From: Sneathiella sp.
Lineage (GTDB): Bacteria; Pseudomonadota; Alphaproteobacteria; Sneathiellales; Sneathiellaceae
DNA length: 60,379 nucleotides
Direction of reading: 5' to 3'
NCBI RefSeq assembly: GCF_002694385.1
Contig: NZ_NZMB01000012.1
Location: forward strand, 162,112-222,490
The position numbers and the translations under genes are program-made. Each line of letters opens with the position of its first letter. Position 1 is the first letter of the stretch. The notes under the pieces were generated by a model, which saw nothing but the letters and a program-made list of their open reading frames with translations, was not told the origin of the DNA and ran no database searches. Below are positions 28,713-48,346 of the stretch, piece by piece.

Positions 28713-30080
28713 ATGACAAAGCCCTGGCATGAGATGACGGCCCTTGATCTGGGCCATCTTATAGAGGATGGATCGATTGATCCAACTGATCTTGCGCAAT
28801 ATTTTCTGGACCGGATCAAAACCACCGACCCGGATGCGAAAATCTTTGTACGCCTGACGGAAGAACGGGCGATGGGTGAGGCGAAAGCCGCCGCACTTCG
28901 CGCCCGGCGTAAAGAGCGGCTGAGCCCGCTGGATGGTGTGCCCCTTTCATGGAAAGATCTGTTCGATACGGCGGGCGTGGCGACGGAAGCGGGTACGAAG
29001 CTGCTTCAGGGACGCACGCCCGATACGGATGCCGCCTGCCTGACGCGGGCCACCCGCGCCGGGCTAGTCTGCCTTGGTAAAACCAGCATGCCGGACGTTG
29101 CCTTTTCCGGCCTTGGCCTCAATCCCTGGACTGGCATTGCGCCCAACCCTTACGACCGCAAGACGGAAAGAGTAACGGGTGGCTCGTCGGCAGGGGCCGC
29201 ACTGTCAGTTGCCCTTGGCCTTGCGCCCGCCGCGATCGGCTCGGATACGGCCGGGTCCGTCAGAATACCCTCCGCCTGGTGCGGCCTGACGGGGTTTAAG
29301 CCCACCTTCGGGCGCATCTCGCTGGACGGTGCCGTCCCGCTTTCCTATACGCAGGACAGCATCGGCCCCCTCACGCGCGATGTTGCGGATGCCAGCCTGC
29401 TTTACAGCATTCTCTCCGGCACGCCCGCTGCGGATCTGAGCGGCGCGTCCCTGCAAGGCGTCAAAATCCTGCGCGCCACCAGCCAGTTCGATGACCTTGC
29501 CGATCCCGCCATCACGGCCCGGATCGGCGATGCTCTTGCGCTGCTTGAAGCGGCGGGCGCAGAGGTGACGGACGGCGCAATCCCGGCTTTTGACGACGTT
29601 ATTGCCCTGTCTTCGCGGCACGGCACACCGGCGGCCATTGAAGCCTGCATGATGTATCGCGACCTGATCCGCGCAAAACCGGGAGACATGTACGGCCCGA
29701 TTGCCGAACGTATTCTGGCCGCCGAAAAATTTTCCGCCATCGACGCCGCCGCGCTTTATCGTGGCATGGAGCGGCTGACGCAAGAGTATCTCACGCAAAC
29801 GGCGGGATTTGATCTGGTCGTCGGCCCGACACAGCCGGAGCATCCCCCCGCGATTGCCCCGCTCCTTGAAGATATTGATGCTTTCCTGCGCGCCTCGCTG
29901 ATGTCGATCAGCCTAACCCGGCTTGCCAACCTGCTGCGGCTTTGCGCCATCACCCTGCCCTGCGGTAAGGATCAGGGGCTGCCCGTTGGCCTGATGCTCA
30001 TGGCGCCCGGCAATGCCGAAGGTAAGCTTCTGCGCCTTTCCGCTGCTGCTGAAATGGCCCTCACTCCCCTGAATGTCTAA
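28713..30080 (+). CDS. Amidase (amidase-signature family)
   Basis: A 455-residue hydrolase with the Ser-cisSer-Lys triad in place: Lys81 (SWKDLF), Ser158 (GGSSAGAA) and nucleophile Ser182 (GSDTAGSVRIPS). It resembles GatA in the core, but no gatB/gatC is near and the N-terminus is that of free amidases that split carboxamides into acid and ammonia. Substrate unknown. It sits upstream of glnK-amtB on the same strand, separated by 200 bases with a separate sigma-54 promoter. Divergent from the UbiH-like gene. Confidence 0.85.
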   Translation: MTKPWHEMTALDLGHLIEDGSIDPTDLAQYFLDRIKTTDPDAKIFVRLTEERAMGEAKAAALRARRKERLSPLDGVPLSWKDLFDTAGVATEAGTKLLQGRTPDTDAACLTRATRAGLVCLGKTSMPDVAFSGLGLNPWTGIAPNPYDRKTERVTGGSSAGAALSVALGLAPAAIGSDTAGSVRIPSAWCGLTGFKPTFGRISLDGAVPLSYTQDSIGPLTRDVADASLLYSILSGTPAADLSGASLQGVKILRATSQFDDLADPAITARIGDALALLEAAGAEVTDGAIPAFDDVIALSSRHGTPAAIEACMMYRDLIRAKPGDMYGPIAERILAAEKFSAIDAAALYRGMERLTQEYLTQTAGFDLVVGPTQPEHPPAIAPLLEDIDAFLRASLMSISLTRLANLLRLCAITLPCGKDQGLPVGLMLMAPGNAEGKLLRLSAAAEMALTPLNV

Positions 30081-30112
30081 AATTTATGCATCTTTGCCAT
30101 TTTGATTAAAAT

Positions 30113-30149
30113 TTGTGCAATTAAATATTGCATCTGCACAGTGCGCAAG
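30113..30149 (+). promoter_or_regulatory. Possible NtrC enhancer half-sites upstream of glnK
   Basis: TTGTGCAA (30113-30120), TTGCATC (30128-30134) and GTGCGCAA (30141-30148) lie 56-92 bases before the -24 element. They resemble halves of the NtrC site (TTGCACC...GGTGCAA), but spacing does not match the classical 17-base site. Position and context are better support than the sequence. Confidence 0.35.
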
Positions 30150-30204
30150 CTCCCTAAAATTTTAACCTTCTGATAATAAAAGAAAAATATCTCCAGCCCT
30201 CTTC

Positions 30205-30220
30205 TGGCACGGGTCTTGAA
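30205..30220 (+). promoter_or_regulatory. Sigma-54 (-24/-12) promoter of glnK-amtB
   Basis: TGGCACGGGTCTTGAA has a perfect -24 half (TGGCACG) and correct N4 spacing to TTGA, so the -12 GC is GA here. It is 61 bases upstream of the glnK ATG. glnK-amtB is a classic NtrC/RpoN target in proteobacteria, which supports the call despite the imperfect -12 half. Confidence 0.72.
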
Positions 30221-30262
30221 GAACAAGATCTGAAATCGGGTATTTCGTCCCGGTCAAAATAA

Positions 30263-30619
<357 letters not shown>

Positions 30620-40937: not shown

Positions 40938-41426
40938 CTAGAGCTGGCGGTAGAGGTGATAGCGCCCCGCCGCCACGCCGTCGGGCAGCGGCCAGGGCTG
41001 CCAGTTAGCCACATCAAAAGGCTGATCGCTGACGATCACCGCGCCGGGTGCCAGCAGCTTTGGCAAACTATGTGCGAGCATCCGGGCAAGCGCCACGCTC
41101 GCTTCCTTGTCACCGGAGCCAATGTCACAATGGGCGAGCACGGCTTTCGATTTCATATGTTGAAGGGCCTTCGGCACCGTCTCCAGAAAGTCGCCGACAA
41201 TCATATGCTCCGTATCCGGGATACAATCGGGATGGGCCTTCACATGACGGTCAAACACATAGATATCGCGATCCGGCAACAGGCTGCGGAGATGATCATA
41301 GGTACGGCCATTGCCAAGGCCCAGCTCTATCACGCTGCCGGATGTGTCTTTGATAATTGCCGCCGCAAAATTTAGGCAATCCCGTTGGGCATTCATCCGC
41401 CGGATAAAACTGTCAAGCCTACTCAT
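40938..41426 (-). CDS. Small SAM-dependent methyltransferase
   Basis: A 162-residue Rossmann methyltransferase with motif I VIELGLGNGRTYDHL, motif II-like IYVFDRH and motif IV-like AVLAHCDIGSGD. It lacks a substrate-recognition insertion, so the target is unknown. Its ATG overlaps the queG stop by four bases and follows GGGGGTAAAG, so it is translated with queG. Confidence 0.78.
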   Translation of the reverse strand: MSRLDSFIRRMNAQRDCLNFAAAIIKDTSGSVIELGLGNGRTYDHLRSLLPDRDIYVFDRHVKAHPDCIPDTEHMIVGDFLETVPKALQHMKSKAVLAHCDIGSGDKEASVALARMLAHSLPKLLAPGAVIVSDQPFDVANWQPWPLPDGVAAGRYHLYRQL

Positions 41427-42580
41427 TCTTTACCCCCGCTACTTAATCTCCACTCCTCGCGGACATCGTGGTCCGACTCATTATCGTATAGCCTATCACG
41501 TAACTGCCAAAATTGAGAACCCTCCGCAATCCGGCCAAGCGCCCAGACCGCCGCAAGCCGGACAATCGGTGAGGGATCTTCCAGCAAATTTTCAATGAGA
41601 GGCAGATATTCCCCGTCTTCACTATTGCCGATGGCAATCAGGACATTGCGGACAAACCGATTGCGTCCGAGCCGTTTGACCGGCGATTTGGAAAAGAGCG
41701 CCCGAAAGGCCGGATCATCCAGGACCGCCAGTTCCGCCAGCATCGGGGCCGTCAATTCCGGCCGTGGTTCAAACCCAAGTTCGGAGGCTTTTTTCGCATA
41801 TTTGTTCCAGGGGCAAACAGCCAGACAATCATCGCATCCATAAATCCGGTTGCCGATCAGAGGGCGCATTTCGCGATCAATATGCGCTCTTGTCTCGATT
41901 GTCAGATAGGAAATGCAGCGCCGGGCATCCAGTTGATAGGGCGCCGGGAAAGCTTTTGTCGGGCAGACATCGAGACAAGCAGAGCAGGAGCCACAACCAC
42001 CATGTCCCGGCGGATCGGGCATGATTTCATGAGTTGTGAAGATACTCCCAAGAAACAGCCAGGAGCCAAACTCGCGACTAACGAGATTGGTATGCTTGCC
42101 CTGCCAGCCGAGCCCGGCCGCCGCCGCCAGCGGCTTTTCCATAACCGGCGCAGTATCCACGAAGACTTTTACATCGCCGCCATACTCACGGACAAGACGG
42201 CGCGCCATGCTTTTCAGCTTCTTTTTGAGAATATCGTGATAATCGCGGCCCTGCGCGTAAACGGAAATGATACCCCGGTCCGCGTGCGCCGCCAGTTCCA
42301 GCGGGCTCATTTCCGGGCCATAGTTGAGACCCAGCATGATGACAGAGCGCACCTCCGGCCACAATGCCTGTGGATGGCGTCGACGGTCCGCCTTCTCGGC
42401 GATCCAGTCCATATCCCCCTGCCGGTCCAGCGCAATGAATTCATCAAGGCGGCGGCCCGGCAGATCGCCGAAGTCGGCGGCGGCAAAACCGACGGTATCA
42501 AACCCCTCTTCCCTCGCCAGACGGCGGAGCAGACCCGCAGTCAGACCCTTTTTTTCCGGATCAGAAGTCGAGGTCGGCAT
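41423..42580 (-). CDS. queG: Epoxyqueuosine reductase QueG
   Basis: Cobalamin- and Fe-S-dependent enzyme for the last step of queuosine synthesis in tRNA. From ATG 42580 it has 385 residues. Two 4Fe-4S motifs (CGSCSACLDVCPTKAFP and CDDCLAVCPWN) and a HEAT-like C-terminal region (PSPIVRLAAVWALGRI) are present. The start overlaps the 3' end of the gst gene by 20 bases. The frame extends upstream in gst but without family similarity. Confidence 0.95.
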   Translation of the reverse strand: MPTSTSDPEKKGLTAGLLRRLAREEGFDTVGFAAADFGDLPGRRLDEFIALDRQGDMDWIAEKADRRRHPQALWPEVRSVIMLGLNYGPEMSPLELAAHADRGIISVYAQGRDYHDILKKKLKSMARRLVREYGGDVKVFVDTAPVMEKPLAAAAGLGWQGKHTNLVSREFGSWLFLGSIFTTHEIMPDPPGHGGCGSCSACLDVCPTKAFPAPYQLDARRCISYLTIETRAHIDREMRPLIGNRIYGCDDCLAVCPWNKYAKKASELGFEPRPELTAPMLAELAVLDDPAFRALFSKSPVKRLGRNRFVRNVLIAIGNSEDGEYLPLIENLLEDPSPIVRLAAVWALGRIAEGSQFWQLRDRLYDNESDHDVREEWRLSSGGKE

Positions 42581-43229
42581 AATGGGACGGGGCGGGCATT
42601 CCGGGCAGGTTATCCGCCAGAATGGCGCGGAAACTCGGTCGGGATTTTGCGCGGGCGTACCAGATTTTGGCGGTTGGATGCTGTTCCCACGGCACATCAC
42701 CCAGATAATCAACGCTGGAAAGCTGCGCGGCGGCGGCGATATCGGCGAGAGTAAAATCATCCCCCGCCAACCAGGAGCGTCGCTCCACCAGATAGGTGAT
42801 ATATTCCAGGTGGTAATGGATATTATGATGGCCCGCGCGGATCGCCGCCGTGTTTGGCGTGCCCGTGCGGGTCAGCCGCTTCATGATCTTTTCTTCGACC
42901 AGATTATCCGTCACTTCGAAATAGAATTTGCGGTCAAACCAGCCGATCAGACGGCGCGCCTCGGCCCGCTCCACCCGATCTTTCGGAAGTAGCGGGACTT
43001 CCTTGTATGTTTCTTCCAGATACTCACAGATCGACTGGCTGTCGGAGAAGACAATATCGTTCTCATCGACCAGCACCGGTACTTCACAGGCCGGATTACG
43101 GGCCAGGAATGCCGGTCGTCGCTCCCACGGCTTTTCAATTTTAAGGTCGAATTTGAGGCCCTTCTCCGCCATGGCCAGCCGGACTTTACGGCAGGCGGGA
43201 GAAATCCAGAAATGATAGAGTGTTCGCAT
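42561..43229 (-). CDS. Glutathione S-transferase family protein
   Basis: A 222-residue two-domain GST. The N-terminal thioredoxin fold shows ISPACRKVRLAMAEKGL, EVPVLVDEN and the cis-Pro/glutathione region SDSQSICEYLEE; the helical C-domain has the LAGDDFTLADIAAA motif. The candidate catalytic residue is Ser10 or Cys13 near the N-terminus. Substrate unknown. It overlaps queG, so the order gst-queG-methyltransferase is one unit. Confidence 0.88.
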   Translation of the reverse strand: MRTLYHFWISPACRKVRLAMAEKGLKFDLKIEKPWERRPAFLARNPACEVPVLVDENDIVFSDSQSICEYLEETYKEVPLLPKDRVERAEARRLIGWFDRKFYFEVTDNLVEEKIMKRLTRTGTPNTAAIRAGHHNIHYHLEYITYLVERRSWLAGDDFTLADIAAAAQLSSVDYLGDVPWEQHPTAKIWYARAKSRPSFRAILADNLPGMPAPSHYADLDF

Positions 43230-43314
43230 GGGGCGACATTACCCCATGAGAGATAAATGGAGAATAGGCTGTTTGCAGGATTTTGCTAAAAATCTTGCAA
43301 CCCGCCCCGTTCAG

Positions 43315-43587
43315 TCAGTTGATGGGATGAATCAGCAGCTTTTCACTCTGCTTCAGAAGCCGGGCGCATTCGTGGCGGATGCGATCAAACATCTCGGCCA
43401 CACGGATTTTGCCCTGCTGGTCAAGGTGCGTGACCTGACTTTGCGCCACATCCGGCGCCTCTTCGCCATAGATCAGGATATAGCGCCGGGCCGCCCATTT
43501 GACATCTTCGGGGTTGATGATGGGATCAGCACAGGATGCGGACAGGCCCTCCGGCGCCGGTGAGGTGGAAATTGTTGACGAATCCAT
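43315..43587 (-). CDS. Small protein of unknown function behind a sigma-54 promoter
   Basis: A 90-residue cytosolic protein. The first 30 residues are Ser/Pro/Ala-rich and probably unstructured. The rest is helical: VKWAARRYILIYGEEAPDVA, then IRVAEMFDRIRHECARLLK. This half resembles short alphaproteobacterial proteins with an AAxxxIxxHGEDA-type pattern and no assigned function. ATG 43587 has AGGAG eight bases upstream. A perfect -24/-12 element (43629-43644) and a palindrome (43607-43620) lie in front. Downstream of gltB on the same strand, but separated by a terminator, so it is its own unit. A nitrogen-stress role is inferred. Confidence 0.75.
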   Translation of the reverse strand: MDSSTISTSPAPEGLSASCADPIINPEDVKWAARRYILIYGEEAPDVAQSQVTHLDQQGKIRVAEMFDRIRHECARLLKQSEKLLIHPIN

Positions 43588-43606
43588 GTCTGCTTCTCCT
43601 GACGAC

Positions 43607-43620
43607 TGCAAATATTTGCA
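43607..43620. promoter_or_regulatory. Perfect 14-base palindrome at the predicted start of transcription
   Basis: TGCAAATATTTGCA is its own reverse complement and spans the position expected for the +1 of the sigma-54 promoter, 20 bases before the ATG of the small gene. It could be an operator or a weak RNA hairpin. No binding protein is assigned. Confidence 0.5.
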
Positions 43621-43628
43621 TGAAGAGA

Positions 43629-43644
43629 AGCAAACCGCGTGCCA
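43629..43644 (-). promoter_or_regulatory. Perfect sigma-54 (-24/-12) promoter
   Basis: The minus strand reads TGGCACGCGGTTTGCT, matching every defined base of TGGCACG-N4-TTGCW. It is 42 bases upstream of the ATG of the 90-residue protein, with the expected start near 43618. It is the best sigma-54 element in the window. Confidence 0.85.
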
Positions 43645-43732
43645 CTATCGGATATCAGATAATACCGGTTTTCCGCAGTTCTTTATACGCAGACGCCCGG
43701 AATTCTCTGCTGGTGGGCAGAAATTTCCTGAT

Positions 43733-43761
43733 AAAAAGCCGGAGAATTTCTTCCCCGGCTT
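43733..43761 (-). terminator. Rho-independent terminator after gltB
   Basis: On the minus strand AAGCCGG and CCGGCTT form a seven-pair stem with a 11-base loop followed by TTTATC. It lies 23 bases after the gltB stop and separates gltDB from the small sigma-54-driven gene. Confidence 0.82.
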
Positions 43762-43783: not shown

Positions 43784-46700
43784 TCAGGCGGATTGCTGCG
43801 CCATCTCATCTGACAGCGGTTGCGCCAGCTTGTTGATCATTTCCTTCGGGCAGACCTGATAGAAATGCTCCCGCTCCCAGCTCCAGTTGGCCAGCAGGGA
43901 TTCGGCAAACGGCGACTGGGTATGTTCCACGTGATCCGCGATCATGCCTTTCAGCACCTCTTCCCAGTGACGGGAGGCAAGCCGCTGATAAACAACCGAT
44001 TCGTCATTGATATGCACCGGCAGCAGATTATCCGCATCATAAATAAATGCCATTCCCCCGGTCATACCGGCGGCGAAATTATCGCCCACCGATCCCAGAA
44101 TGGTCACCATGCCACCGGTCATATATTCACAGCCATTGGTGCCGCAGCCTTCCACGACGGAGATTGCACCGGAATTGCGCACGGCATAGCGTTCCCCGGC
44201 CTGTCCCGCCGCGTAAAGATAGCCGGATGTCGCACCATACAGAACCGTGTTGCCGATAATGGCGTTTTCATTCCATTTCAGCGGGCTGGAGGTGAGCGGC
44301 CGGACAACAATAGAACCGCCGGACAAGCCCTTGCCGCAATAGTCATTGGCATCGCCCAGAACTTCCAGTTTCAGCCCCTGCACAGCGAACGCGCCAAGCG
44401 ACTGACCGGCGGAGCCCCGCAGACGCACCGTGATATGACCAGGCTCCAGCCCGCGCATACCGAAAGTGCGGACGATCCGCGAGGAGAGCTTCGTCCCGAT
44501 GGCGCGATGCGTATTGCGAATGCTATAGGCAAGCTGTTTCTTTTCCCCGCCCTTGGTGAAAACACTGGCCGCATCCAGAATCATCTGCGCGTCCAGCGTT
44601 TCCGGAACCGGGATCGGCCCCTGATTGACGCAATAGCGTGGATTGTTGCCTGCATCCGCCTCGGCAAGAAGCGGATTGAGGTCGAGATCATCCAGATGCG
44701 CAGATCCACGGCTGACCTGTGAGAGCAGGCTGCTGCGACCGATGATTTCCTGCAATGACCGGAAGCCGAGCTGCGCCAGAATTTCACGCACCTCTTCCGC
44801 AAGGAAGCTGAAAAGGTTGACGAGCTTGTCGGCGTTCCCCTCATACTTCTTGCGCAGTTCCTCATCCTGCGTACAGATGCCGACCGGACAGGTGTTGGAA
44901 TGACACTGCCGCACCAGAATACAGCCCAGCGCCACCAACGCGCCCGTACCAAGCCCGTATTCCTCACCGCCCATCATCGCACTGATGACGATGTCGCGGC
45001 CGGTCTTCATGCCCCCGTCGACGCGCAGCAGAACGCCGTGGCGTAGCTTGTTGAGGGTCAGCACCTGATTGACTTCCGGCAAGCCCATTTCCCATGGCAC
45101 ACCGGCATATTTGACCGATGTCTGCGGGCTTGCACCCGTTCCGCCGGAATTGCCGGAAATCATGATCACGTCGGCTTTGGCCTTGGCGACGCCTGCCGCC
45201 ACAGTGCCGATGCCCACTTCCGCCACCAGCTTCACGCAGACACGCGCATCCGGATTGATCTGCTTGAGATCATAGATAAGCTGCGCCAGATCCTCGATCG
45301 AGTAGATATCATGATGCGGCGGCGGGGAGATGAGTGTCACACCCGGCGTCGAATTCCGCAGGCGGGCAATCATTTCCGATACCTTGAAGCCGGGAAGCTG
45401 TCCGCCTTCACCGGGTTTCGCCCCTTGCGCGATCTTGATTTCGATCTCTTCGCAGTTATTCAGATATTCCGCCGTCACGCCAAAGCGGCCTGATGCGATC
45501 TGCTTGATTGCCGAGTTGGCGTTATCGCCATTCGGCTTTGGCTTGAAGCGCGCGACATCTTCGCCGCCTTCACCGCTGTCCGACTTGCCGCCGATCCGGT
45601 TCATGGCAATAGCGAGGGTTTCATGGGCCTCCGGGCTGAGTGCCCCGAGGCTCATGGCGCCGGTCACGAACCGCTTGCGGATTTCCGTAATACTCTCCAC
45701 CTCGTCAATCGGGATGGGTTTGCGCGGTGACTTAAAGTCCAGCAGATCCCGCAGATTGACAGGCGCCATCTTGCGCAGCCCTTCGCTATACTTTTTGTAA
45801 AGCGAATAGCTGTCCTTTTCGACGGCAGTTTGCAGAATATGAATCAGCTCTCCGTCAAAGGAATGTACTTCACCGGAGGCGCGATAGCGGTAGATTCCGC
45901 CAACTGGCAGACTGATGACATCGCTGCGGAACGCCTTTTCCTGCTGCTCCAGAATCTTGTGCTGGATGCCCGGCAGGCCGATGCCGGAAATGCGCGACGG
46001 CATGCCCGGGAAAAACTCGGCAACCAGCGCCCGCGACAGGCCGACAGCTTCAAAATTATAACCGCCGCGATAGGAGCTGATGACCGAAATGCCCATTTTC
46101 GACATAACCTTGAGCAGGCCCTGATTGATTGCCTCCTTTGCGCGGGCAAGGCAGGCTGAAACATCAAGCCCCGGAAACAAGCCACGGTCATGCCGGTCAA
46201 CGATTGATTCCTGAAGCAGATAGGCATTCACCGTTGTCGCGCCAACGCCGATCAGCACCGCAAAATACTGCACATCCAGACATTCACCGGAGCGAACATT
46301 GATCGATGTAAAAGTGCGCAGCCCCTCATTCACCAGATGCGTATGCACACCCGCCGCCGCCAGAATAGACGGGATTGGCGCCCGGTTCAGGCCGATATTC
46401 ATATCATTCAGAATGAGATGCGCACAGCCGCCCCGGACTGCGTTTTCAGCATCCTTGCGGATACGACGCAACGCAGTCGAGAGAGCTTCCGGCCCGTCGG
46501 CGATATCAAAGGTGCAATCAATCTCCTGCGCCGTGTTCCCCATGTAGACCTGCATGGCTTCAAATTCACCATTGGTCAGGACCGGGGATTCGAGCGCCAG
46601 AATTTCCGCCTGGCTCTTGTCCTCGTCAAGGATGTTGTTGAGGTTGCCAAGACGTGTTTTCAAGGTCATGACGCTGCGTTCACGCAGGCTGTCAATCGGC

Positions 46701-48346
46701 GGATTGGTCACCTGGCTGAAACGCTGGCGGAAATAATGATGCAAACCGCGATACTGCTTGGACAGAACGGCCAGCGGGGTGTCATCGCCCATGGAGCCGA
46801 CGGCTTCCTTGCCATCCTCCGCCATCGGCTGGATGATCAGCTCCAGGTCTTCCAACGACCAGCCGGCCGAAAGCTGCCGCTTACGCAGTTCCTGACGGTC
46901 AAAGCGGCGGACCTCTTTGGCGCCGGCAATCTTACTGCCCAGATCGACAGTATTTTCGATCCACTTGTCGAAGGGCTGGGAATTCGCCAACCGGTCTTTC
47001 AGTTCGCGGTCGAAATAAAACCGGCCCTTCTTCAGATCGACACCGATCATCTGGCCGGGGCCCACCCGCCCCTTGCGCACAATCTTCATTTCATCAACCG
47101 GCACCATGCCGGTTTCCGAGCCGACAATCAGCATGTTGTCCTGCGTCAGGGTATAGCGAAGCGGCCGGAGACCATTACGGTCAAGCCCGGCAATAACCCA
47201 GCGGCCATCCGTCGCGCAGATGGCGGCGGGTCCATCCCACGGTTCCATGACCGAGTTGCAATAGGCGTAAAGCGCCTTGTGCTTGACCGGCATATTTTCC
47301 TTGTTGCCCCAGCTTTCCGGGATCAACAGGGTTTTCGCCATCGGCGCGCTGCGACCGGCGCGGACCAATACCTCGAACACCGCATCCAGCGCGGCGCTGT
47401 CGGACCCGCCCGCCTGAATAATCGGCTTCACATCGTCGGAGCGGTCTCCGAACGTGTTGGAAACCATGCGGATTTCATGGCTTTTCATCCAGTTGATATT
47501 GCCGCGGATGGTATTGATCTCGCCGTTATGCGCGAGCATACGGAACGGCTGCGCCAGATTCCAAGTGGGGAATGTATTGGTCGAATAGCGCTGATGATAG
47601 ATGGCAAAGCTGGAAACAAACCGCTCATCCAGTAGATCGGGATAGAAGCTGGAAAGCTGTTCCGCCAGGAACATGCCCTTATAGATGATCGACCGGCAGG
47701 ACAGCGTGCAGATATAAAATCCGCTGATATGCGCGGCCAGCACGTTCTTCTCGATCCGCCGCCGGATGATATAAAGATCCCGTTCAAATTCATCATCGTC
47801 AACACCGCGCGTGTTGGCAATCATGATCTGCTCGATCTCCGGACGAGTCGCATTGGCCTTTTCGCCGATGATCGTTGCATCAACGGGAACCTGCCGCCAG
47901 CCATAGATATAATACCCGAAAGCGAGAATCTCGCTTTCAACAATCGTGCGGCAGGTCTCCTGCGCTTCGAAGTTGGTTTTCGGCAGGAACACCATGCCAA
48001 CGGCCAGCTTGCCGTCAATCGGTTCATGCCCGGTGCGCATGATATGTTCCTTGAAGAAATCATGCGGGATCTGGACATGGATGCCGCAGCCGTCGCCCGT
48101 CTTGCCATCCGCATCGACAGCACCACGGTGCCAGACCGCCTTCAAGGCGTCAATGCCCGCTTCGACCACAGCGCGCGAGGGTCTGCCGTCAATCGCCGCC
48201 ACCAGGCCAACGCCACAATTGTCCCTTTCCTCCGCCGGGTCATACATGCCGTTTTCGGCCAGAAAGGCAGCGTTATCCGTCCAGGATTTGACGAATGCTT
48301 CGCCTTGCGAGAGACCCGCCGACAGATTCTTGATGTTTTTCGTCAT
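43784..48346 (-). CDS. gltB: Glutamate synthase (NADPH) large subunit
   Basis: A 1520-residue enzyme making two glutamates from glutamine and 2-oxoglutarate. A propeptide of 43 residues precedes the nucleophile Cys44 (ERDNCGVGLVAA) of the class-II glutaminase domain (about 44-430). The central domain, FMN/synthase domain (GEGGQLPGFKVSEMIARLR, SGGTGASPQTSVKYAG) and 3Fe-4S cysteines (CHSNTCPVGIC) follow, then the C-terminal beta-helix with repeated Gly-rich turns. It is 18 bases downstream of gltD. AAGGTGG lies ahead of the ATG. Confidence 0.98.
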   Translation of the reverse strand: MTKNIKNLSAGLSQGEAFVKSWTDNAAFLAENGMYDPAEERDNCGVGLVAAIDGRPSRAVVEAGIDALKAVWHRGAVDADGKTGDGCGIHVQIPHDFFKEHIMRTGHEPIDGKLAVGMVFLPKTNFEAQETCRTIVESEILAFGYYIYGWRQVPVDATIIGEKANATRPEIEQIMIANTRGVDDDEFERDLYIIRRRIEKNVLAAHISGFYICTLSCRSIIYKGMFLAEQLSSFYPDLLDERFVSSFAIYHQRYSTNTFPTWNLAQPFRMLAHNGEINTIRGNINWMKSHEIRMVSNTFGDRSDDVKPIIQAGGSDSAALDAVFEVLVRAGRSAPMAKTLLIPESWGNKENMPVKHKALYAYCNSVMEPWDGPAAICATDGRWVIAGLDRNGLRPLRYTLTQDNMLIVGSETGMVPVDEMKIVRKGRVGPGQMIGVDLKKGRFYFDRELKDRLANSQPFDKWIENTVDLGSKIAGAKEVRRFDRQELRKRQLSAGWSLEDLELIIQPMAEDGKEAVGSMGDDTPLAVLSKQYRGLHHYFRQRFSQVTNPPIDSLRERSVMTLKTRLGNLNNILDEDKSQAEILALESPVLTNGEFEAMQVYMGNTAQEIDCTFDIADGPEALSTALRRIRKDAENAVRGGCAHLILNDMNIGLNRAPIPSILAAAGVHTHLVNEGLRTFTSINVRSGECLDVQYFAVLIGVGATTVNAYLLQESIVDRHDRGLFPGLDVSACLARAKEAINQGLLKVMSKMGISVISSYRGGYNFEAVGLSRALVAEFFPGMPSRISGIGLPGIQHKILEQQEKAFRSDVISLPVGGIYRYRASGEVHSFDGELIHILQTAVEKDSYSLYKKYSEGLRKMAPVNLRDLLDFKSPRKPIPIDEVESITEIRKRFVTGAMSLGALSPEAHETLAIAMNRIGGKSDSGEGGEDVARFKPKPNGDNANSAIKQIASGRFGVTAEYLNNCEEIEIKIAQGAKPGEGGQLPGFKVSEMIARLRNSTPGVTLISPPPHHDIYSIEDLAQLIYDLKQINPDARVCVKLVAEVGIGTVAAGVAKAKADVIMISGNSGGTGASPQTSVKYAGVPWEMGLPEVNQVLTLNKLRHGVLLRVDGGMKTGRDIVISAMMGGEEYGLGTGALVALGCILVRQCHSNTCPVGICTQDEELRKKYEGNADKLVNLFSFLAEEVREILAQLGFRSLQEIIGRSSLLSQVSRGSAHLDDLDLNPLLAEADAGNNPRYCVNQGPIPVPETLDAQMILDAASVFTKGGEKKQLAYSIRNTHRAIGTKLSSRIVRTFGMRGLEPGHITVRLRGSAGQSLGAFAVQGLKLEVLGDANDYCGKGLSGGSIVVRPLTSSPLKWNENAIIGNTVLYGATSGYLYAAGQAGERYAVRNSGAISVVEGCGTNGCEYMTGGMVTILGSVGDNFAAGMTGGMAFIYDADNLLPVHINDESVVYQRLASRHWEEVLKGMIADHVEHTQSPFAESLLANWSWEREHFYQVCPKEMINKLAQPLSDEMAQQSA

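Follow-up and report, generated by a model that had tools for sequence, protein, structure and literature searches.

A conserved small gene between gltB and fzlA in Sneathiella is probably a member of the FlbD/sigma-54 flagellar regulon

Introduction

In the genus Sneathiella, a gene for a protein of 90 amino acids stands beside gltB and behind a promoter element of the sigma-54 type. The locus raises the question of which sigma-54 activator switches this gene on, and with which cellular program. The initial annotation pointed to nitrogen: the gene was taken to be probably a new small member of the nitrogen-limitation response, and its product was suggested to act, perhaps as adaptor or inhibitor, on GltBD, GlnK or AmtB. 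We analysed the gene, its promoter and its neighbours in the window (the whole stretch of DNA under analysis, 60,379 nucleotides of a Sneathiella sp. contig, to which positions given without a locus name refer) and in related genomes. The name X is used here for the 90-aa protein encoded at 43318-43587 on the minus strand. A literature search on X or its promoter in Sneathiella found nothing in titles and abstract openings, which is no proof that neither has been described.

The reading favoured here, with a probability of about 0.75, places X in the late flagellar regulon under FlbD and sigma-54, driven through a candidate FlbD repeat. On this reading a conserved gene first placed in the nitrogen response would instead belong with the flagellar genes.

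The sigma-54 promoter of gene X

The following features define the gene and its promoter.

43629..43644, minus strand: sigma-54 -24/-12 promoter element TGGCACGCGGTTTGCT, a perfect match, kept in 23/23 loci
43596..43600, minus strand: ribosome-binding site AGGAG of gene X, read directly from the sequence
43315..43587, minus strand: gene X, an ORF found in 24/24 genomes, for a 90-aa protein with a disordered N-terminus, a two-helix hairpin and the C-terminus -IN

As read from the window, the perfect element is TGGCACG-CGGT-TTGCT on the minus strand (43644-43629). It is the sole perfect match to TGGCACGN4TTGCW in the window, where about 0.01 would be expected by our own arithmetic. When up to two mismatches are allowed, 9 matches are seen against 11.4 expected, which is chance level. 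A looser element pattern, run over the whole genome, gave 32 matches compared with 13 in a reversed control, or approximately 2.5-fold. Because such a pattern is only partly specific genome-wide, the case for the X promoter is made by conservation and not by the match.

A -24/-12 element lies above X in 23/23 Sneathiella loci with upstream DNA; the 24th X locus ends at a contig end before the promoter, and promoter counts are accordingly given for 23 loci. The element has no mismatch in 4 loci, one in 13 and two in 6, and its GG and GC are retained in all 23, in intergenic DNA that, judged by eye, has diverged across these loci. We consider the conserved sigma-54 promoter of X to be genuine on these grounds, and the perfect promoter claimed in the initial annotation is thus confirmed by an exact match as well as by conservation. 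The check proposed with that claim asked whether the element and the proximity to gltB are retained among homologues; it was run and came out positive on both counts, as X homologues keep the element in 23/23 loci and have gltB upstream in 22/24. The ATG start codon of X, at 43587, is located 41 bases below the element, and the stop codon ends at 43315; the claimed 90-aa ORF with a ribosome-binding site (AGGAG) below the element is borne out.

The protein encoded by gene X

Protein searches found X in 24/24 Sneathiella genomes, the source genome of the window included, and in 0/36 others. One of these 36 (G024) holds a diverged copy beside fzlA that is visible to a profile only. Outside Sneathiella, the X profile gave 17 matches in 385 genomes, all of them weak (best E 9e-4). 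In the alignment of the 24 sequences, 17/90 columns are invariant. Substitutions at codon positions 1, 2 and 3 number 3060, 2487 and 7139 over 171 pairs, as counted for residues 21-90 in the 19 ungapped orthologues among the 24. This codon-position pattern is that of a coding gene and indicates that X is under coding selection.

An AlphaFold2 model of X (mean pLDDT 81) contains helices at residues 26-57 and 61-85, which form a confident two-helix hairpin, and a floppy stretch of approximately 20 residues at the start, where residues 1-17 fall below pLDDT 50. The disordered N-terminus and helical C-terminal half described earlier from the sequence agree with this model. No significant match to X was found in Pfam, NCBIfam, PHROGs or PADLOC, and the PDB yielded nothing usable by sequence and no match with E < 0.001 by fold. 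The earlier description of an uncharacterised small protein beside gltB therefore stands, in that X is a real coding gene for which the family databases gave nothing significant.

An upstream repeat shared with flagellin promoters

The region above the element contains a further conserved feature.

43716..43728, minus strand: candidate FlbD site GGAAATTTCTGCC, an inverted repeat of 13 bp that begins 84 bp upstream of the -24 element; repeat present in 23/23

A repeat of the form GG[CTA]A-N5-T[GTA]CC occurs in 23/23 X promoters and starts 74-122 bp above the element, compared with a mean of 0.49 loci and a maximum of 4 in dinucleotide shuffles of these promoters. A scoring matrix was trained on the X promoter sites only and then applied to 19 flagellin and 19 glnK promoters, all of which are sigma-54 promoters of the genus Sneathiella. 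Within the window, the matrix gives its top score (17.3) to the repeat above X and its next best score (15.0) to a place at 29723. The runner-up lies inside a long ORF, approximately 480 bp above the glnK element, and has no sigma-54 element nearby.

The mean best score of the flagellin promoters was 9.65, against 1.21 (sd 0.93) in shuffles, of which 0/200 scored as high. For the glnK promoters the mean best score was 3.26, and 4/200 shuffles were as high. The two sets differ with a Mann-Whitney p of 7e-6, which is nominal because the sequences are related, and a score of 9 is reached by 12/19 flagellin promoters versus 1/19 glnK promoters. The X repeat and the glnK palindrome described below were both first spotted by eye in the sequences in which they were later counted. 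Since the repeat was picked in this manner in the X promoters, only the scores of the X matrix on the flagellin and glnK promoters count as independent tests.

In the flagellin promoters, the sites occur in tandem, with a spacing peak at 19 bp (12.5 versus 2.3 for the next best, among spacings of 8-39). The tandem partner is weak at X, where a score of at least 4 at spacings of 18-21 was found in 7 cases across the 23 loci. Above other sigma-54 elements of the source genome, the matrix scores 12.4 at flagellin (named by Pfam), 10.8 at fliK (named by Pfam Flg_hook), 18.7 at a gene on L126 and 1.0 at urtA. A further high score, 11.3 and presumably due to chance, falls above a sigma-54-like match that lies within a long ORF (L129). 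Poor scores and no good repeat were found at L122 and L124 (MinD-like), which lie behind sigma-54-like matches.

Two of the genes behind such elements deserve a short description. The gene at L126:1116-1463 (minus strand) encodes a 116-aa protein with no Pfam match, and the repeat with the score of 18.7 is located at -120 above its sigma-54-like element; it is possibly another FlbD-regulon gene. At L116:700-1482 (minus strand), a diguanylate cyclase (GGDEF) gene stands behind a sigma-54-like element with weak repeats at -120, -97 and -84.

A second genus of the Sneathiellaceae has a similar arrangement. At L233:3070-3640 of the sister genus (genome G024), the gltB-X-fzlA order is kept and X is strongly diverged. 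A sigma-54 element, TGGCGCGCTCCTTGCG, lies above the X homologue, together with a near-repeat, GGCGAATCTTGCC, at -86 with a score of 10.8, in which the strict pattern is broken by one base (GGCG for GG[CTA]A).

Absence of the glnK-type site from X promoters

The position of gltB upstream of X in 22/24 loci and the sigma-54 elements that urtA and glnK have within this window are what an NtrC-switched nitrogen-limitation gene, perhaps with a product that serves GltBD, GlnK or AmtB as adaptor or inhibitor, would lead one to expect. Both of these further -24/-12 elements, which had been reported with that of X, exist, but the one at glnK reads TTGAA and not TTGC. In Sneathiella glnK promoters generally, the -12 element is mostly TTGAA or TTGTA rather than TTGC.

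The glnK promoters (window 29990-30290 and L173-L193) contain a 17-bp palindrome approximately 100-132 bp above the element. Within 4 mismatches of TGCCTAA-N3-TTAGGCA, it is present in 19/19 glnK promoters, in 0/19 flagellin promoters and in 0/23 X promoters, and 38/380 shuffles reach 4 mismatches or fewer. This palindrome may be the NtrC site of Sneathiella, and we treat it as a candidate. The pattern TGC-N11-GCA was found in 9/19 glnK, 0/19 flagellin and 0/23 X promoters. The classical NtrC consensus TGCAC-N5-GTGCA occurs 17 times in the window against 27 expected, which is not above chance, and GCAC-N5-9-GTGC is found in none of the X, flagellin or glnK promoter sets.

Upstream of X, the boundary with gltB is marked as follows.

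43784..48346, minus strand: gltB, glutamate synthase large subunit, upstream neighbour outside the unit (NCBIfam NF008730 over cut-off)
43733..43760, minus strand: terminator-like hairpin plus T-run in the interval between gltB and X, which it separates, read from the sequence

A similar hairpin with a T-run is present in most of the 23 loci (by eye). Control of X by NtrC was rejected, as the glnK-type palindrome is missing and the type of site present is common to X and flagellin promoters. With the terminator-like hairpin between gltB and X, these data make a nitrogen-limitation gene very improbable. The membership of X in the nitrogen-limitation response, as first proposed, gains no support from promoters with 0/23 glnK-type palindromes and a repeat shared with flagellin promoters, and nothing was found in favour of an adaptor or inhibitor of GltBD, GlnK or AmtB.

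Assignment of the repeat to FlbD

FlbD is the activator of flagellar assembly. The source genome encodes three full sigma-54 activators (bEBPs), namely NtrC, NtrX and FlbD, as well as four weaker activator-domain matches (E 3e-7 to 7e-4). The GAFTGA motif is present in NtrC and FlbD and absent from NtrX. FlbD passes the equivalog cut-off of NCBIfam NF050807 (772 bits versus 750) and NtrC passes that of its own NCBIfam model, whereas NtrX, in a stretch with masked bases, falls just under its cut-off (571 of 600 bits). In this genome, ntrC lies by an NtrB-like kinase gene, and flbD lies between MotA- and FlhA-family genes. The position of FlbD beside motA and flhA recurs in 11/11 further genomes (10 Sneathiella and the sister genus).

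Since NtrC and FlbD are the sole full activators with GAFTGA and no glnK-type site is present at X, the repeat above X can be assigned by elimination to FlbD, for which we infer it to be a candidate site. Among 10 further Sneathiella genomes, searched at E 1e-20, 4 encode only three bEBPs and 6 encode one or two more; the elimination is incomplete in these 6.

The downstream neighbours fzlA and queG

Downstream of X, on the same strand, two further genes follow.

43230..43314, minus strand: X-fzlA gap of 85 bp, in which inspection by eye shows no clear intrinsic terminator (24 gaps read)
42561..43229, minus strand: fzlA, homologue of a GST-fold FtsZ-binding cell-division protein (phmmer to 5nr1_A)
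41423..42580, minus strand: queG, which overlaps fzlA at the latter's end; the start codon is our choice (NCBIfam TIGR00276 QueG over cut-off)

The gene directly below X is a glutathione S-transferase by Pfam and matches the FtsZ-binding protein FzlA (5nr1_A) over its full length (phmmer, E 5.5e-66, residues 2-222). It follows X on the same strand in 24/24 loci, with a gap of 61-90 bp in 23 and of 146 bp in one. Most of the 24 gaps have no clear terminator by eye, and some have T-runs or hairpins; as clear terminators are few, read-through from X into fzlA is possible. A CTATTCT block, possibly the -10 element of a promoter of fzlA itself, occurs in 19/24 gaps, and this conserved promoter-like block weakens the idea of read-through. 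Directly before the fzlA start, GGGG-N5-10-CCCC is found in 13/24 loci (window 43230-43245, GGGGTAATGTCGCCCC, where the spacer is N8). Its position is that expected of the ribosome-binding site of fzlA, and translational control or a leaderless start is possible there.

This arrangement bears on the view that the sigma-54 unit is mainly an extra, flagellum-dependent promoter for fzlA (and queG), with X as a minor passenger or leader gene. The constant order of X and fzlA, mostly without a clear terminator, fits this view, as do the Caulobacter fliX mutants, which turn filamentous according to PMC3930126. However, X is itself under selection, with 17/90 invariant columns and a coding substitution pattern, 19/24 loci have the promoter-like block between the two genes, and T-runs or hairpins occupy some of the gaps. 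A passenger role for X is decidedly unlikely on this evidence.

The wider history of the locus was followed in 54 fzlA loci from 51 other alphaproteobacterial genomes, three of which contributed twice. Within the fetched stretch, gltB lies above fzlA in 12/51 genomes, one of these calls being weak (42% over 91 residues), and X is absent in 11 of the 12; at L230, a 52-bp interval with no gene in it separates gltB from fzlA. An X homologue between the two genes was found in 1/51, namely in G024, which represents the one further genus of the family in this set. By this comparison the pairing of gltB with fzlA seems to predate X. Since gltB lies above fzlA without X in other genomes, X has probably been inserted between two long-standing neighbours, or been retained there, and the 11 genomes without X also speak against a nitrogen function read from the proximity of gltB.

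Relatives of X in the DUF6961-like proteins

Profile comparison with hhalign aligned X to DUF6961-like profiles without gaps over 61 columns, with a probability of 87.7 and a score of 32.2. The score was matched by 0/200 column shuffles (maximum 18.5), and the reversed profile reached 11.7. X is on this basis a diverged relative of the DUF6961-like small proteins of the alphaproteobacteria. The L233 homologue, which has LN at its C-terminus, is matched by both profiles, that of Sneathiella X and that of the DUF6961-like proteins, and bridges the two groups. The C-terminal residue is N or H, preceded by a hydrophobic residue, in all 24 X proteins; 19/30 DUF6961-like proteins also end in N or H, 16 of the 19 after A, I, L, M or V. 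The relationship is a distant one: X does not reach the curated cut-off of DUF6961 (Pfam PF22284), one of the 24 members matching at E 0.016, and DUF6961 has no match over cut-off in the source genome. A search of the source genome (G000), G005 and G012 with the DUF6961-like profile at E 0.001 returned nothing, X included, and X is thus far diverged. Nine DUF6961-like matches occur in a single alphaproteobacterial genome (G040, e.g. L081), several of them on one contig.

DUF6961-like proteins are found in 54/240 genomes of the class by profile search. Among 30 of their genes, two have a sigma-54 element with 2 mismatches; the remaining 28 have none below 3 mismatches, and no gene has one below 2. 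As these relatives mostly have no element, sigma-54 control seems particular to the X lineage, and the relatives lend no functional support to the flagellar reading. The five flanking proteins scanned around DUF6961-like genes (HNH, M78 peptidase, SHOCT, ion channel, none) reveal no neighbour in common. A literature search returned no paper naming DUF6961, and we know of no function for any DUF6961-like protein.

It could be argued that X has a DUF6961-like housekeeping function unrelated to motility and is, in the Sneathiellaceae, merely timed by the flagellar program. The spread of the relatives over 54/240 genomes and the 28/30 genes without an element are in keeping with this. A housekeeping function has no positive support, however, as no DUF6961-like member has a known function, and the failure of the DUF6961-like profile to detect X at E 0.001 marks X as far diverged. 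We regard such a function as somewhat unlikely.

Proposed mechanism and significance

In the FlbD reading of X, the activator would become active after the early flagellar basal structure is completed, would bind the inverted repeat that starts 74-122 bp upstream of the -24 element and would then activate the sigma-54 promoter of X. This promoter would yield X, a small two-helix-hairpin protein, late in flagellar assembly, and transcription may continue from X into fzlA and queG. The binding of FlbD to the repeat and an expression of X that tracks flagellar assembly are both inferred from sequence. In Caulobacter, according to PMC7064773, FlbD acts only after the MS ring-C ring-export complex forms, and it does so through FliX. 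Should the same timing hold in Sneathiella, synthesis of X would fall late in assembly.

With respect to the role of X, we tentatively suggest that the protein serves the checkpoint of flagellar assembly as a small adaptor or regulator, plausibly acting toward cytokinesis through FzlA. A bearing on division is plausible because fzlA adjoins X, and a link of X to cytokinesis through fzlA is possible. The main alternative role is an ordinary motility accessory function. A more specific, and unlikely, proposal is that X and its FlbD-driven promoter form a lineage-specific device which couples flagellar assembly to cytokinesis. Once the checkpoint is passed, FlbD would raise X, and fzlA by read-through, and X would act on FzlA/FtsZ or on division timing. 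The filamentous fliX mutants of Caulobacter (PMC3930126) indicate that flagellar regulators touch division, and such a device, if real, would be a direct molecular embodiment of the FliX/FlbD-cytokinesis link described for that organism.

Beyond the gene itself, the analysis provides candidate sites for both sigma-54 activators, FlbD and NtrC, of a little-studied genus. Moreover, a flagellum-type promoter directly before a cell-division gene makes a link between flagellum and cytokinesis testable at one locus.

Comparison with known systems

The likeness of this locus to FzlA is that of a neighbour, as X is a different, helical protein of 90 amino acids that is unmatched to FzlA. DUF6961 and DUF6961-like proteins resemble X in size and in the N/H ending of the C-terminus; they differ from it in that X has a sigma-54 promoter, while 28/30 relatives have no element with fewer than 3 mismatches. 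With the NtrC/sigma-54 nitrogen regulon, X shares the sigma factor and the -24/-12 element, and it adjoins gltB, but it has no glnK-type upstream palindrome. Unlike the known members of the FlbD/sigma-54 flagellar regulon of Caulobacter and other alphaproteobacteria, X corresponds to no known flagellar protein, and its gene stands between gltB and fzlA. X has in common with this regulon the sigma-54 element together with an upstream repeat of the flagellin-promoter type, and Sneathiella has FlbD itself, encoded between motA and flhA.
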